DNA of 64,000 nucleotides, taken from NCBI RefSeq assembly GCF_000174815.1, contig NZ_ACNN01000026.1:124001-188000 (forward strand), written 5' to 3'. Origin of the DNA: Porphyromonas endodontalis ATCC 35406 (lineage in GTDB: Bacteria > Bacteroidota > Bacteroidia > Bacteroidales > Porphyromonadaceae). This document shows positions 3,595 through 8,755 of the stretch, in pieces (positions within the stretch are counted from its first letter, which is position 1; every line of letters begins with the position of its first letter). The notes beneath the pieces were generated by a model that was not told the origin of the DNA, searched no databases, and saw only the letters and a list, made by a program, of their open reading frames with translations. The position numbers and the translations under genes were made by a program.

Positions 3595-6500
3595 CTATTT
3601 TACGGAATAAGGGATCTCGAATGACTCCAAAAGATCTACCAACCAAGTACCCAGAGTGAATGCTCTCTCGGTCATTAGGTACCTCTCTATCGGATTGCCA
3701 AACTCATCACAGAAGGATATGATAAGCTTTGTTTGGGCATTATTGGCTTTCTCACTACCATGGGCATCTATCTCGGTGATAAACTCTTTGACAAACAATT
3801 CGTCGATCTCTTTATAGGGGATAAATAACTCAACCTCTTTGATTGAAGAATAGTATTCGTCGGTCAGAAGTTCAATTGAGTTGAAAGAAAGGTCGAATCG
3901 TTCCGGTTCATCGGGCTTCTTGAATTGCCACAGCTTTACACTGGCATGGCAGATCAGGAAGATCTCGGTTTTGAGGAAATGTTTGTATTCAAGGTACTGT
4001 TTCCCAAAGAGGGCAAACTCATGAGAACCGGACAAATCTTCGAGGGTGAAGCGACCATAGGGCTTGTTTGTCTTGGTCAGCCCTTCCATCACATTTGTGA
4101 CCAATCCGGCAAATACCATCCTGGTGTCTTTGAATTCCTCCAAGTCCTTTTTGTCGAGATCATCGAGCTTTACGGTACAAAGCTTATCTAGGATAAGGCG
4201 GTAAGGCTCCAGGGGATTCGAACTAATATAGATACCAACAAGTTCGTACTCTTTGCTGAGTTTGGTAAGATTATTCCAAGGCTCGGCTTGGGGGACTTCC
4301 GGTTCTGGGATCGAAAGTTCCTCACTCTCTCCAAAAAGCCCCATGCTCTGAGACGAACTCTCCTCTTGCACAATGCGACCATAGGCAAGCAGGGTGGCTA
4401 TAAATGAATCCTCACGGGAGTTGACAGGAGGTGCAAAGAAGCTCTCTCTCTCAATACCGAAGCTATCGAAGGCGCCGGAGAGAGCGAATGCTTCCATCGT
4501 TTTTCTATTGATAAACTGTCGGGGGATGCGAGCAACAAAGTCGTAGATGCTTGTAAAGGGACCATTTTGCTCTCGGTCTTCGATGAGTTTATCGATTGTT
4601 GTTTGGTTTACCCCTTTGATGCCACTAAGTCCAAAGCGTATATCGCCGTTGCTATTGACACTGAACTTTTGCATTGATTCGTTTACGTCGGGAGAAAGAA
4701 GGCGGATACCCATTGCCTTGCACTCCTTCATGAGTTTCGCTATTTCCGGAGCATTGCTGAGGTTGCAACTCAAGTTGCCCGCCATAAACTCACTCGGATA
4801 GTGCGCCTTGAGGTAAGCCGTTTGGTAAGCCAACCAGCTATAACAGGCAGCATGACTCTTATTGAAGGCATATTTGGCAAAGTCCTCCCAGTCCATCCAA
4901 ATCTTCTCTAGGACCTCTTTGGAATGCCCATTCTCTACGCCCCCTTTGAGGAAGTCTGCCTTGAGCTTCTCCATCTCCTCAATTTTCTTTTTCCCCATCG
5001 CCTTGCGGAGGGAGTCACTCTGGCCACGTGTGAAATTGGCCAGAGAGCGAGATAGAAGCATTACCTGCTCTTGGTATACGGTTACACCAAAAGTCTCCTC
5101 AAGTATTTCCTTGGTTTCCGGCACATCGTAGATGATCTCCTCTCTACCGTGCCTTCGGGCAATGTACTGAGGGATATACTTCATCGGCCCCGGGCGATAG
5201 AGAGCATTCATTGCAATGAGCAGCTCAAATCGATCGGGTTGTAGCTCTCTCAGATACTTTTGCATCCCTGCGGATTCGAACTGAAAGATCCCCACCATTC
5301 GTCCCTCGCAGAAGAGTTTGAATGTCTTCTCGTCGTCTAGAGGGATGTGGTCTATGTCAATATCCTTATGGAATCGGTGTTTTACATTCTCCAATCCCTC
5401 TCGGATGATACTGAGCGTTTTGAGTCCTAAGAAATCCATTTTGATAAGACCTGTGGACTCGATCACCTTACCCTCGTACTGGGTAATCAATACCTTTTCT
5501 CCGTTCTCATCGAAAGAAGTCGAAATAGGGATTACGTCGCTTATATCATACTTCCCGATGATCACTCCACACGCATGAACCCCAATATTGCGAATACTCC
5601 CCTCCAACTTCTGTGCATACTTGAAGGTATCTTGTATCTGAGTATTGCTCCCGACCTGTAGTTTCTTTAGCTCGGGTACGACTAAAGTAGATAGTTCGAT
5701 AGTTACGTTGCCCTTTGCATTTTCATAGCCGGGCGTCTTGTGTATAAGCTCCATATCGCTATCACTAAACTTATCGGGGATGAGCTTAGTAATGCGTCGG
5801 CTCTCTTCTACCGGTATATGTTTTAGGCGCGCAACGTCGGCAATCGAGCTTTTGGCTTTCATTTCGCCAAAGGTGATGATCTGAGCCACGTTTTTGTGTC
5901 CGTACTTCTCGGTAGCCCATTGGAGGATCTTTGCACGCCCGGAGTCGTCGAAGTCTATGTCAATATCCGGGAGGGAGATACGATCCGGATTGAGGAATCG
6001 CTCGAAAAGCAAGCCGTATTTCAGTGGGTCTAGATTCGTTATCTTGAGGCAATAGGCTACGGCCGAACCTGCTGCCGAACCACGCCCCGGCCCCACACAC
6101 ACTCCCATGTCTCGAGCTGCCTGAATGAGGTCTTGCACGATAAGGAAGTATCCGGGGAATCCCATCGACTTAATCGTGTTCAACTCAAAGTCAATCCGCT
6201 CCTTTACCTCCTCGGGGATGGGGTCGCCATAGCGCATTTTTGCCCCTTCGTAGGTGAGGTGCTGGAGGTATTTGTCGGCATCATCAAACCCTTCGGGCAG
6301 TGGGAAGTCCGGCATAAGTGCCGGGTTTTCGATGGTATAGAACTCTACTTTGTTTAGGATTTCCAGCGTATTGGAGAGAAGTTCGGGGCGATCTGCAAAC
6401 ACGGCATTCATCTCCTCTTGAGTTTTGAGCCACTCTTGCTGCGAATAACGCATACGCTGAGGGTCGTCTAGATCTCTCTTCGTACCCAAGCAAATGAGCA

Positions 6501-7350
6501 TATCGTGCGCCGTGGCATCCTCCTGATTGACAAAGTGGACATCATTCGTTGCCACTACCTTTACCCCTGTACGCTCTGCAATATCGTAGATCACTTCGTT
6601 CACAGCCAGCTGCTGCACAAAGGTCTCTCTATTGGCATTTGGGTCATCCGTTTGATGGAGTTGCACCTCTAGGTAATAGTCTTCTCCAAAGATGTTTTTG
6701 AACCAACGAACGGTCTCTTCTGCTCGCTCGGGATGCCCTCCTAGGATGTGTTGCGGGACTTCTCCTCCCAAACAGGCACTCATTACGATAACCCCTTCGT
6801 GGTATTGCTCAAGCAAATCTTTGTCGATACGGGGGCGATAATACTCCCCTTCGGTAAATGATGCGGATACCATTTTGCAGAGATTGAGGTACCCTTGTTT
6901 GTTCTTGGCAAGGAGGATGAGATGCCACCCACTTCGGTCTATGGAGCGGCTGGGGTTGTAGGGATCCGGCACGTCCTTGTCTTTGTCGAAGCGGGTGCGT
7001 CGTGCGCAATAGGCCTCACAGCCGAAAATCGGCTTAAACATCTGACGCTCTACCTCACTTATCTCCTGTTCCAATTTCTCTATTTCTTCCTTATCCTCAG
7101 GGGTGGGCGACTCCTTTTTTTGCAGCTCCTTTATCTCTTTTTTGAGTGCGGAGATGCGAGAACGATGCTTTGAATTGACCTTGTTGCACTCATCGAAGAA
7201 TGTTTTAATCCCAAACATAACTCCATGATCCGTAAGGGCAATACCGGGCATACCATCCCCGATGGCTTTTTTTACGAGAGCCGAGACGGAGGCTTGCCCA
7301 TCAAGGATTGAGAATTGTGAGTGAACGTGTAGGTGGACGAAAGGAACCAT
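3595..7350 (-). CDS. dnaE: DNA polymerase III alpha subunit
   Basis: Replicative DNA polymerase catalytic subunit, 1251 residues from the ATG chosen here. The N-terminus carries the PHP domain (FVHLHVHSQFSILDG). The polymerase core includes GPGRGSAAGS and the metal-binding PDIDIDFDDSGR. C-terminal to that are the helix-hairpin-helix and OB-fold regions. The open frame extends 16 codons further upstream to a TTG at 7398, but the ATG at 7350 puts the PHP motif at the usual distance from the N-terminus, so I prefer it. The protein is of DnaE rather than PolC type: no exonuclease insert is visible. It lies upstream of trxA on the same strand. Confidence 0.96.
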   Translation of the reverse strand: MVPFVHLHVHSQFSILDGQASVSALVKKAIGDGMPGIALTDHGVMFGIKTFFDECNKVNSKHRSRISALKKEIKELQKKESPTPEDKEEIEKLEQEISEVERQMFKPIFGCEAYCARRTRFDKDKDVPDPYNPSRSIDRSGWHLILLAKNKQGYLNLCKMVSASFTEGEYYRPRIDKDLLEQYHEGVIVMSACLGGEVPQHILGGHPERAEETVRWFKNIFGEDYYLEVQLHQTDDPNANRETFVQQLAVNEVIYDIAERTGVKVVATNDVHFVNQEDATAHDMLICLGTKRDLDDPQRMRYSQQEWLKTQEEMNAVFADRPELLSNTLEILNKVEFYTIENPALMPDFPLPEGFDDADKYLQHLTYEGAKMRYGDPIPEEVKERIDFELNTIKSMGFPGYFLIVQDLIQAARDMGVCVGPGRGSAAGSAVAYCLKITNLDPLKYGLLFERFLNPDRISLPDIDIDFDDSGRAKILQWATEKYGHKNVAQIITFGEMKAKSSIADVARLKHIPVEESRRITKLIPDKFSDSDMELIHKTPGYENAKGNVTIELSTLVVPELKKLQVGSNTQIQDTFKYAQKLEGSIRNIGVHACGVIIGKYDISDVIPISTSFDENGEKVLITQYEGKVIESTGLIKMDFLGLKTLSIIREGLENVKHRFHKDIDIDHIPLDDEKTFKLFCEGRMVGIFQFESAGMQKYLRELQPDRFELLIAMNALYRPGPMKYIPQYIARRHGREEIIYDVPETKEILEETFGVTVYQEQVMLLSRSLANFTRGQSDSLRKAMGKKKIEEMEKLKADFLKGGVENGHSKEVLEKIWMDWEDFAKYAFNKSHAACYSWLAYQTAYLKAHYPSEFMAGNLSCNLSNAPEIAKLMKECKAMGIRLLSPDVNESMQKFSVNSNGDIRFGLSGIKGVNQTTIDKLIEDREQNGPFTSIYDFVARIPRQFINRKTMEAFALSGAFDSFGIERESFFAPPVNSREDSFIATLLAYGRIVQEESSSQSMGLFGESEELSIPEPEVPQAEPWNNLTKLSKEYELVGIYISSNPLEPYRLILDKLCTVKLDDLDKKDLEEFKDTRMVFAGLVTNVMEGLTKTNKPYGRFTLEDLSGSHEFALFGKQYLEYKHFLKTEIFLICHASVKLWQFKKPDEPERFDLSFNSIELLTDEYYSSIKEVELFIPYKEIDELFVKEFITEIDAHGSEKANNAQTKLIISFCDEFGNPIERYLMTERAFTLGTWLVDLLESFEIPYSVK

Positions 7351-7441
7351 ACTATATCGATTGTCGTTGCTCTGAATGTGATCTCTACTTATCTGCAAAG
7401 GAGAAAAGCTGTGGTTTCTCTTCGGGGAGAAGAGCCTGCTA

Positions 7442-7449
7442 CAAAGTTA
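7442..7449 (-). promoter_or_regulatory. Candidate -7 box for dnaE
   Basis: The minus strand reads TAACTTTG, fitting TAnnTTTG, about 90 bp before the preferred dnaE start. A matching -33 element is not clear, so this is tentative. Confidence 0.35.
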
Positions 7450-7499
7450 GGCGATTTGCTTTATTCGTCCACCATCTCGCAGGGTAATTGACTTGTCGC

Positions 7500-7653
7500 A
7501 AAAAGCTCATGAGCTTTCATCAAATTTCTAATGAGCTTTTAGTAAAAAGCTAATGAGCTTTTGTCGGATTCCTCATGAGCTTTTGAGAGAAAGCTAATGA
7601 GCTTTTATAAGAATGGTCATTAGCAATCGCCTGAGTGGTCATTAAGAATAGAG
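7500..7653. repeat. 22-bp-period direct repeat array built on AAAGCTnATGAGCTTT
   Basis: Seven consecutive 22-bp units can be laid out from 7500. Units 1 to 5 share the core ATGAGCTTT at a fixed position; units 6 and 7 keep only GGTCATTA at the equivalent position and look decayed. Unit 1 contains a perfect 16-bp palindrome, AAAGCTCATGAGCTTT (7502-7517); units 3 and 5 have the same palindrome with one change. The spacing is close to two helical turns, which would put each core on the same DNA face. The array sits in the non-coding stretch between dnaE and an accessory-looking gene pair. Function unknown. Confidence 0.8.
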
Positions 7654-7661
7654 AAAAAGGT

Positions 7662-7928
7662 TCATATTGAGGAGGAAGAGGCAGAGATGAAGAAGCTCTT
7701 CCGCTTGATGGTTTTTTGAAAACGTCTAGAGAGCATTGACAAAATAATGGGTGTTTGTCCATTGCCAGCACACAAACAAATCCACACCCAAATCACTGAC
7801 CAAAAGATTGTGAAGGATATGGAGAGGTTGATACTACAAAGAAGTATGTAGCCCAAAACTGAAAGAACTTGCTTCGTGTTTAGTGGAGCAAGTTCTTTAC
7901 ATTTTATGACTTTTTTCTCAATAGTCAT
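7662..7928 (-). CDS. Doubtful small hydrophobic ORF, possibly a gene remnant
   Basis: An 88-codon open frame with a hydrophobic centre (about residues 24-56) and a Cys-containing stretch, CLCAGNGQTP. I do not recognise it. Against it being a real gene: its 5' half is written across a 12-bp perfect hairpin (7862-7898), its C-terminus is low-complexity Ser, and it runs towards the repeat array. It may be a remnant of a transferred gene. Recorded with low confidence because it is the only open frame of any size in this gap. Confidence 0.2.
   Translation of the reverse strand: MTIEKKVIKCKELAPLNTKQVLSVLGYILLCSINLSISFTIFWSVIWVWICLCAGNGQTPIILSMLSRRFQKTIKRKSFFISASSSSI
7862..7898 (-). terminator. 12-bp perfect hairpin, possible terminator of the methyltransferase gene
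   Basis: AAAGAACTTGCT (7862-7873) and AGCAAGTTCTTT (7887-7898) are perfect complements around a 13-base loop. Read on the minus strand, the hairpin comes about 60 bases after the stop of the methyltransferase gene and is followed after two bases by TTTT. It may end the accessory transcript before dnaE; it could equally be the end of a small mobile element. Confidence 0.5.
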
Positions 7929-7957
7929 ACCGCTTCTTTTTTATCACAATTTCGCCA

Positions 7958-8755
7958 TCATCTTGGAGGTTTCACGGCAACAACAGAAAACAGCATCGGT
8001 ATCTCGCCATTCTTTCCTGCGATTTTGAATGTTCCGTTCTTTTCAGCAGTCATATTCCCAAATAGATTGAAAGGCGAATAATCATACTCTCCGAAAGACT
8101 TTATCTGCAAATCATTACAGAGCAAGCCATTCAGCACCACAGCCAGCCCGTGGTTCCATGTAACGGTCTTTTGCCGATTGTTGGTTTCTGAATCAGTGTA
8201 GGTGGCTTCTTCAACAACATAGGGTTCTTTGCGTGAATAGGCATATCGGACTTGCGAAAAATCTTCATTGAACATCCACAATACAGGGTGAAATTCCACG
8301 AAAACGAACTTCCCTCCATCTTTCAGCATTCGTGAAACCACCTGTCCCCATTGGACTAAGTCGGGCAACCAATTAACAACGCCATAAGATGTATATACAA
8401 TGTCAAACTGTTGCCCTTGCAGCACGGCAGGTGCATCGTAGATGTTGCAGCAGCAGAATTGTGCATTCAGTCCTAATTCCTCATTCAAAGACTTTGCCGT
8501 TTGTATAGCCTCTTCTGAGAAATCCACTCCCACTACATTGGCTCCCATCTTTGATAAGGAAAGCGTATCCATGCCGAAATGGCATTGGAGATGCAGAATA
8601 GACTTTCCCCGAATATCACCCAGCAAGGACAAATCCAAGTCGGGAACAGACTTTACCTCTCTTTTGAACTTGTCCAAATCATAAAATGAAGAATGCAGAT
8701 GAATTTTTGTTCTTGCATTCCATGCTTCCTTATTTGTTTTATAATAATCTTCCAT
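7958..8755 (-). CDS. Class I SAM-dependent methyltransferase
   Basis: A 265-residue soluble protein with a Rossmann-like methyltransferase fold. Motif I region ILHLQCHFGMDTLSLS is followed by the acidic end of strand 2 in VVGVDFSEEA, then DIVYTSYGVVNWLPD as the motif IV region. The substrate cannot be told: the sequence is of the broad Methyltransf_11/25 type. It lies downstream of the AlkD-like gene on the same strand with a 93-bp gap. Base composition looks more AT-rich than the flanking dnaE and glycosyltransferase genes, and both genes sit beside a repeat array, which suggests acquisition by transfer. Confidence 0.85.
   Translation of the reverse strand: MEDYYKTNKEAWNARTKIHLHSSFYDLDKFKREVKSVPDLDLSLLGDIRGKSILHLQCHFGMDTLSLSKMGANVVGVDFSEEAIQTAKSLNEELGLNAQFCCCNIYDAPAVLQGQQFDIVYTSYGVVNWLPDLVQWGQVVSRMLKDGGKFVFVEFHPVLWMFNEDFSQVRYAYSRKEPYVVEEATYTDSETNNRQKTVTWNHGLAVVLNGLLCNDLQIKSFGEYDYSPFNLFGNMTAEKNGTFKIAGKNGEIPMLFSVVAVKPPR

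Follow-up and report, generated by a model that had tools for sequence, protein, structure and literature searches.

The array upstream of dnaE

The window analysed here is a stretch of 64,000 nucleotides from the genome of Porphyromonas endodontalis ATCC 35406. It contains the dnaE gene on the minus strand and, next to it, an array of short tandem units. The features of this region are as follows.

3595..7350, minus strand: dnaE (DNA polymerase III alpha), neighbour of the array, with the Pfam domains PHP, DNA_pol3_alpha, finger and HHH_6; start codon at 7350 taken from the conserved N-terminus
7442..7449, minus strand: possible -7 box of dnaE, TAACTTTG, a consensus match only
7500..7653, no strand: whole array, made up of seven units of 22 bp built on the dyad core CTMATKAG; candidate dispersed operator array for the HU-HIG protein from G000:C9:31141-31620, with 85.7% identity across 84 bp to the array before that gene
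7500..7521, plus strand: unit 1, AAAGCTCATGAGCTTT, a 16-bp perfect palindrome
7522..7543, plus strand: unit 2, AATTTC-type left half
7544..7565, plus strand: unit 3, AAAGCTAATGAGCTTT
7566..7587, plus strand: unit 4, ATTCC-type left half
7588..7609, plus strand: unit 5, AAAGCTAATGAGCTTT
7610..7631, plus strand: unit 6, TCATTA core in register, diverged outer halves
7632..7653, plus strand: unit 7, TCATTA core in register, diverged outer halves

Since dnaE is read from the minus strand and has its start near 7350, the array is located upstream of this gene, 150-303 bp before its start. The array begins approximately 50 bp upstream of the possible dnaE -7 box (7442-7449). The Bacteroidetes -7 consensus is TAnnTTTG, and no good candidate for a -33 element of dnaE was seen beside this box. 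On the far side of the array from dnaE, Pfam identified a methyltransferase followed by a DNA-alkylation-repair (HEAT) protein, and a terminator-like hairpin of 16 pairs with a T-rich tail (7862-7898) was observed in the stretch that separates the array from the methyltransferase gene.

Re-reading of positions 7500-7653, together with shuffling, confirmed the arrangement described in an earlier note on this DNA: seven units of 22 bp stand in exact register (7 x 22 = 154), with ATGAGCTTT common to units 1-5, AAAGCTnATGAGCTTT present in units 1, 3 and 5, and GGTCATTA present in units 6 and 7. The mean pairwise identity was 0.60 for units 1-7 and 0.72 for units 1-5, yet at only 60% identity the 22-bp spacing is kept without indels. 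The identity at lag 22 reached 87/132, the best stretch within 7200-8000, whereas 1000 dinucleotide shuffles of the same region, each scored at the best of lags 12-60, gave a mean of 52.4 (sd 2.1) and a maximum of 61; the window array is far above chance expectation. In a lag scan of the full 64-kb window (66-bp frame, lags 12-65), the array was the sole stretch scoring at least 38/66, and TRF called it with a period of 22/44.

The core of each unit in the array is the dyad CTMATKAG. In the left outer halves of units 1-5, AAAGC and AATTCC types alternate, and the right outer half is GCTTT. Since the TCATTA of units 6 and 7 fits the core TMATKA in register, the core can be read as two half-sites forming a dyad, with outer halves that may be of either the AAAGC or the AATTCC type. 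The earlier note had regarded the array as drifting at its dnaE-distal end. Units 6 and 7 do differ from the others, but they are better read as another combination of half-sites around an in-register TCATTA core than as simple decay.

Further copies in the P. endodontalis genome

We searched the whole genome for the repeat at 22-bp spacing, as the earlier note had proposed, and found copies in four arrays. BLAST with the window array returned matches at C9:30905 (86% over 84 bp) and C31:117977 (79% over 57 bp), while AAAGCTNATGAGCTTT, searched as a pattern allowing one mismatch, occurred at seven places in four arrays, the fourth of them at C33:146.7k; the reversed control of this pattern gave zero matches in the genome. 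The repeat family of the window, referred to here as family A, is present on C12 (the window), C9, C31 and, in more diverged form, C33. The three further loci lend indirect support to the earlier proposal of a chromosomal site occurring at several loci. The similarity between the window and C9 is limited to the array, and the flanks are unlike. Where copies of one array occur at several loci of a genome, the order of their units is kept.

When 20 stretches of this genome, each of 20 kb and three of them (L131, L132 and L137) picked for known hits, were scanned by lag, 22 proved to be the commonest tandem period. Further repeat families were found in the genome, namely B (GACGTCAT), C (TTCCGTGCGGAA) and, weakly, D, and the arrays of these families occupy gaps between ordinary genes. 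The family-D arrays are weak 22-bp arrays with TGCCC and A/T-rich stretches (L130:7775-7880 and L133:9490-9600); their sites lie upstream of pyrG and between DUF59-like and LpxH-like genes, as named by eye.

The array had also been thought to mark the edge of an insertion carrying the AlkD/methyltransferase pair, and a comparison of dnaE upstream regions in strains with and without this pair had been suggested. The comparison did not bear this out. An array was found within 600 bp upstream of dnaE in 5/22 scored relatives, which lacked AlkD/methyltransferase homologs there, and neither protein was matched by tblastn (E 1e-3) in any of the 25 loci obtained from the dnaE search of the relatives (L097-L121, flanks up to 1.5 kb). 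In P. endodontalis itself the array is not restricted to the gene pair, as the same family is present at three other loci. Likewise, a plasmid-type iteron or a recombination target gained no support, the sampled arrays being located in many ordinary intergenic gaps.

An HU-HIG gene behind the C9 array

The array copy on C9 ends approximately 120-140 bp ahead of the start of a gene at C9:31141-31620 and adjoins a promoter-like TACCTTTGC. The encoded protein belongs to the HU-HIG family of the HU superfamily (PF18291, E 3.9e-17, 62.9 bits against a cut-off of 26.2) and also matches PF00216. Two more P. endodontalis paralogs exceed the PF18291 cut-off, and two of these three proteins exceed that of PF00216. 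In a PDB comparison for the HU fold, a weak match to the HU structure 1p51 was obtained (E 0.3), and the AlphaFold model of a related protein from a viral contig had a mean pLDDT of 52.9, too low for use. The HU superfamily, HU-HIG (PF18291) included, was reportedly surveyed by Burroughs et al. in 2017. Downstream of the C9 HU-HIG gene we noted a 279-codon gene (L131:10724-11563) with a nucleotide-cyclase-like N-terminal motif, recognized by eye only.

Among the HU-HIG upstream regions, the best match of the window array is the one at L182 in its own genome (85.7% over 84 bp, E 2e-23). The window array has both properties that we propose for the cognate array of an HU-HIG protein, a period of 21-23 bp and the same repeat before an HU-HIG gene of the same genome. 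No HU-HIG relic was detected in the window by tblastn (E 0.1) with three HU-HIG proteins of this genome. The C9 gene pairs with family A, and the C31:70160 gene, which is 91% identical to it, pairs with a variant of A. The HU-HIG gene at C12:51514 pairs with family B, and that at C20:33730 pairs with family C, of which L125 and L141 are dispersed copies. The two weak family-D arrays, which fall below the 35/55 cut, match no HU-HIG upstream region.

Arrays upstream of HU-HIG genes in Porphyromonas

To cover the genus, 26 Porphyromonas genomes were searched. At E 1e-4, PF18291 had at least three matches in each of the 26 genomes among the matches listed, canonical HU included, and a protein search with the C9 HU-HIG revealed arrays before many homologs. 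Among the matches listed, 74 of 132 HU-HIG upstream regions (600 bp) showed a best lag of 21-23 at a score of at least 34/55, near-identical genes of close genomes and duplicates being counted separately, while 31 of 1320 random 600-bp segments reached the same level. Of the 132 regions, 52 were taken from loci whose flanks extended to at most 1500 bp and 80 were fetched; canonical-HU-like rows, second copies of one gene and several places near contig ends were omitted. Block-shuffled upstream regions yielded 0 arrays on average (ten sets). Of 79 strong arrays before HU-HIG genes, 74 had a period of 21-23 and 5 had other lags, and the median distance from the array end to the HU-HIG domain match was 100 bp. 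Because the random segments may themselves contain dispersed arrays, this control is conservative. The remaining 58/132 upstream regions lay outside this lag range or below this score, including those of two P. endodontalis paralogs on C31.

Arrays were also scored upstream of other genes in the relatives, with counts of 5/22 for dnaE, 0/23 for PhoH and 6/23 for pyrG. Their presence before pyrG and dnaE indicates a background in upstream regions that is higher than in random segments. A conserved position of the array upstream of dnaE was considered and rejected: at 5/22 relatives, against 6/23 for pyrG, the position is suggestive, but no conservation is claimed. In the genome G008, an HU-HIG gene with a preceding 22-bp array sits just upstream of dnaE (L098:54-230 and 772-1074), and two dispersed arrays of this genome (L153) match the array of that gene.

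In the genome G005, which we take to be P. gingivalis ATCC 33277, 11 of the 15 scored HU-HIG upstream regions carry an array at the same threshold, and a 23-bp repeat is located upstream of the HU-HIG gene at 961562. The genome G016 has three HU-HIG genes with equal domain scores and similar arrays before all of them (G016:C1:562659, 1225183 and 2091020), probably a recent duplication of the gene together with its array.

Covariation of arrays and HU-HIG proteins

For the paralog-pair and dyad analyses, and for matching of arrays, three extra HU-HIG genes inside known loci were added, giving 135 upstream regions. Among HU-HIG paralogs of the same genome, the arrays were unlike in 182/190 pairs and similar in 8/190; six of the similar pairs had a protein identity of 79-100%, and the other two had 26 and 33%. 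Between genomes, alike arrays (E<1e-3) were found in 32/86 pairs with a protein identity of at least 80%, in 5/24 at 70-80%, in 4/111 at 60-70% and in 18/2910 below 60%, a trend that is weakened by the fact that the upstream DNA of orthologs may be alike through descent or recent transfer. Taken as comparisons of sequence, these data suggest that each HU-HIG family member may have its own set of landing sites.

The array period follows the HU-HIG protein clade. On the protein tree of 74 genes, the period changed 8 times, against a mean of 20.6 in shuffles, and 0/200 shuffles were as low, although the tree rests on few alignment columns and near-copies inflate the clustering. Of ten arrays with a 21-bp period, nine fall in a single HU-HIG clade, whose proteins are longer (open frames of 211-233 codons). 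In addition, dyad symmetry of the consensus unit reached at least 6/7 pairs in 43/78 cases, compared with 10% in column shuffles.

Dispersed arrays and their possible partners

With the window array as the BLAST query, matches in the genus were confined to 3/26 genomes, because the repeat sequence differs by species, and lag scanning was therefore used. The two matches outside P. endodontalis were judged by eye, L014 as a related repeat and L015 as coding-like. In 40 stretches of 20 kb from ten other genomes of the genus, arrays of lag 21-23 were detected in 8/10 genomes; in the sampled parts of G009 (80 kb) and G014 (60 kb), there was none at 39/66. The repeat sequences vary between and within genomes, the arrays differ in copy number and their units vary. 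Most of the arrays shown consist of approximately 3-6 units of fixed length, and the 23-bp array of G005 has some fifteen.

We assembled a set of 53 dispersed arrays (at least 35/55 at lag 21-23) from the 60 stretches and the window, all away from known HU-HIG genes; four arrays adjoining such genes were excluded. Of these, 26/53 matched one of the 135 HU-HIG upstream regions (E<1e-3, 600 bp), against 0-8/53 for array-free segments and 0-1 for shuffled upstream regions (ten draws each). The best match was in the own genome for 16 and in another genome for 10, and 20 had some match in their own genome. Permutation of the labels (5000 rounds) gave a mean of 1.8 own-genome matches and a maximum of 13. 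All five P. endodontalis arrays in the set matched an HU-HIG upstream region of the same genome, a count biased upward because L131, L132, L137 and the window had been picked for known arrays. The best match was in the same genome for three of the five, the window included, and in G013 for both family-C arrays. The main figures are those for 600 bp; post hoc widening of the upstream regions to 900 bp increased the matches from 26 to 29 and the best matches within the same genome from 16 to 19.

No HU-HIG upstream match was obtained for 27/53 dispersed arrays at 600 bp or for 24 at 900 bp, the latter being 8/10 in G016, 8/9 in G001 and G025, 5/14 in G012, 2/2 in G011 and 1/2 in G015. Their partners may be other proteins, genes that have been lost or HU-HIG genes outside the sample. 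The main palindrome of G016, GAGGGATATCCCTC, was absent within 900 bp before the six HU-HIG genes of this genome that were examined. In G016, approximately ten 22-bp arrays were seen in 100 kb (L167-L171, e.g. L169:6939-7044), most of them with CTGAGGGATATCCCTCAG; the CTGAGGGATATCCCTCAG arrays have about four units in a kept order, and an HU-HIG partner was not found for them. G001 and G025 carry composite arrays (L172, L174-L178) in which CCACGTGG at 22 bp stands beside CTTCGGAGG at 21 bp, and few HU-HIG genes were present in these genomes among the matches listed, none with a matching upstream array.

Forty-four of the dispersed arrays could be placed between two predicted genes, and the gap was co-directional for 29 of them, divergent for 8 and convergent for 7; all gaps of the same stretches numbered 135, 31 and 30. 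The count omits 9/53 arrays, namely 7 that fall within short predicted frames (90-151 codons) and 2 that lie at the ends of stretches. No orientation bias of the dispersed arrays was found relative to these gaps.

Comparison with known repeats and binding proteins

BrickBuilt is described, in the part of the paper available, as a minisatellite/MITE of P. gingivalis with a 23-nt unit, a leader, a tail and IS5-like inverted ends (Klein et al. 2015, PMC4596501). BrickBuilt_14 adjoins PGN_0872, listed in Table 1 of the same paper as a PF00216 DNA-binding protein, and in the sections available the repeat is not tied to its neighbouring protein (PMC4596501). BrickBuilt and the arrays reported here are both intergenic tandem arrays of fixed unit length at many loci. 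However, the window array has seven units of 22 bp rather than 23 nt, with another sequence, and no leader, tail or inverted ends were seen at it: no flanks are common with C9 and no end sequence lies nearby. The BrickBuilt end GAGACCTTTGCA, with at most 2 mismatches, was not found within 800 bp of the array, and its total in the window was 8 against 6.15 expected. We infer that the 23-bp repeat of G005 is the BrickBuilt unit, which fits the position of BrickBuilt_14 beside PGN_0872, and the BrickBuilt minisatellite is probably another HU-HIG array.

HU proteins are low-specificity DNA packagers. The arrays resemble ParR/parC and plasmid iterons, in which regularly spaced sites precede the gene of the binding protein, in that regularly spaced sites stand before the gene of the proposed binder; they differ in being chromosomal, in having many dispersed copies and in involving an HU-type protein. 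The canonical HU PG0121 of P. gingivalis, of about 10 kDa, is reported, in the part of the source available, to bind with little discrimination, and studies have addressed how an HU protein regulates at an inverted repeat (PMC3969353). This type of HU and HU-HIG belong to the same superfamily, but lower-scoring, mostly canonical HU rows rarely show the 21-23 bp period (1/14, and weakly). In the open-licence literature, we found no paper on the DNA targets of HU-HIG or on its link to these repeats, and prior work may exist elsewhere; in the part available of one paper, the HU-HIG domain is named for one gene in a table only (PMC11035120).

Origin and proposed role of the window array

Judged from sequence, the window array probably represents dispersed operator sites of a sequence-specific HU-HIG protein, the one encoded at C9:31141-31620. 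An HU-HIG homodimer would bind each dyad, and a spacing of 21-23 bp, about two helical turns, would line up adjacent dimers along the same helical face, bound side by side, so that phased dimers could fill the array. The earlier suggestion of a dimeric protein on each unit along one face is supported indirectly by the same repeat at several loci and by the match to the HU-HIG upstream region. An array at the promoter of the HU-HIG gene itself might serve autoregulation, and dispersed arrays such as that before dnaE could provide extra sites for local chromosome shaping or for modulation of nearby promoters. Since gaps on the promoter side of genes hold no excess of dispersed arrays, an architectural role would be as likely as classical gene regulation.

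Several other explanations were weighed against this one. It is unlikely that the arrays are a minisatellite within a MITE-like mobile element such as BrickBuilt, spread by transposition and having no protein partner of their own. In favour of such an element, an array that recurs within a genome keeps its unit order from locus to locus, and BrickBuilt does possess a leader, tail and IS5-like inverted ends, according to the part of its description available (PMC4596501). However, the similarity between the window and C9 stops at the array edges, the frequency of GAGACCTTTGCA in the window (8 vs 6.15 expected) and its absence within 800 bp of the array give no sign of element ends, and the association with HU-HIG genes, the paralog-specific sequences and a period that tracks the protein tree would be left unexplained. 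We regard as quite unlikely a scenario in which another regulator binds the arrays and controls the HU-HIG genes among many targets, HU-HIG not being the binder. The location of arrays near promoters would fit it, as would the approximately half of the dispersed arrays for which no HU-HIG partner was found; nevertheless, a single regulator cannot account for unlike repeats in 182/190 same-genome paralog pairs or for a period that changes with the HU-HIG clade.

Slippage could have produced a neutral, decaying tandem repeat, in line with the variation among units and the differences in copy number, but this origin is very improbable given the indel-free spacing of the window array at 60% unit identity and the recurrence of one period class across many unrelated repeats and genomes beside one gene family; the scatter of periods that slippage predicts is absent, with 74/79 strong arrays at 21-23. 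Equally improbable is an RNA or single-stranded hairpin element, of the terminator or REP-like kind, in place of a protein operator. The units are often palindromic and a separate terminator-like hairpin lies at 7862-7898, but the outer halves of units 2 and 4 are mismatched, so that those hairpins are not formed, no Rfam match was found at 7350-7960 and convergent gaps are not favoured.

Arrays beyond Porphyromonas

In the genomes reached via named loci, 6/15 HU-HIG upstream regions had a best lag of 21-23, 2 of them at a score of at least 34, and in the other 9/15 the best lag lay outside this range; one further region was too short to score. Outside the genus, strong scores were obtained for Bacteroides cellulosilyticus (40/55) and Tannerella forsythia (41) and a weaker one for Lutibacter agarilyticus (33), while in P. 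somerae (L383), of the same nominal genus, the best lag of the HU-HIG upstream region was not 21-23. Among the lower-scoring, mostly canonical HU rows, a best lag of 21-23 was found in 1/14, and weakly. In a class-wide draw of 60 genomes, an HU-HIG match (E 1e-14) was found only in P. endodontalis and two others, of which G069 had a best lag of 21-23 in 10/13 upstream regions (6 at a score of at least 34) and G058 in 0/1. A scan of IMG/VR yielded four HU-HIG genes (L408-L411), all with a best lag of 22 (scores 33, 46, 51 and 35), on contigs that are classed as viral and are perhaps prophages of Bacteroidales. The occurrence of the array with HU-HIG in other genomes and in viral contigs shows that the pairing is not limited to Porphyromonas, although many HU-HIG genes elsewhere lack an array.

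A broader reading, to which we lean only slightly, is that Bacteroidota, Porphyromonas above all, may possess several orthogonal HU-type proteins per cell, each with private satellites of dyad arrays at its own gene and at scattered intergenic sites, with a spacing set by clade and a sequence co-evolving with the protein. Minisatellites including BrickBuilt would then be multi-channel, sequence-specific landing sites of a nucleoid or centromere-like kind, and prophages would carry them too. If each paralog reads its own palindrome in a phased array, the expanded HU-HIG family of Bacteroidota would gain both a function and a DNA code open to direct testing. Published, unexplained minisatellites would be accounted for, natural orthogonal DNA-binding parts would become available, and the joint change of a chromosomal protein and its scattered sites could be studied across species.

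Eighty dnaE loci (894 kb), mostly from other Bacteroidota but including P. somerae, one Porphyromonas MAG and one Chlorobiota, contained at 41/66 one lag-22 repeat (part of an 11-bp series), zero of lag 23 and six of lag 21; by comparison with coding repeats, the last have a period that is a multiple of three. The window array had no DNA match among phage records. Among plasmid records it had one match, in Prevotella nigrescens, 77% identical in two pieces and without an annotated gene; lags 21-23 are not raised there, and one AAAAAGCTCTTAAGCTTTTTT palindrome is readable.
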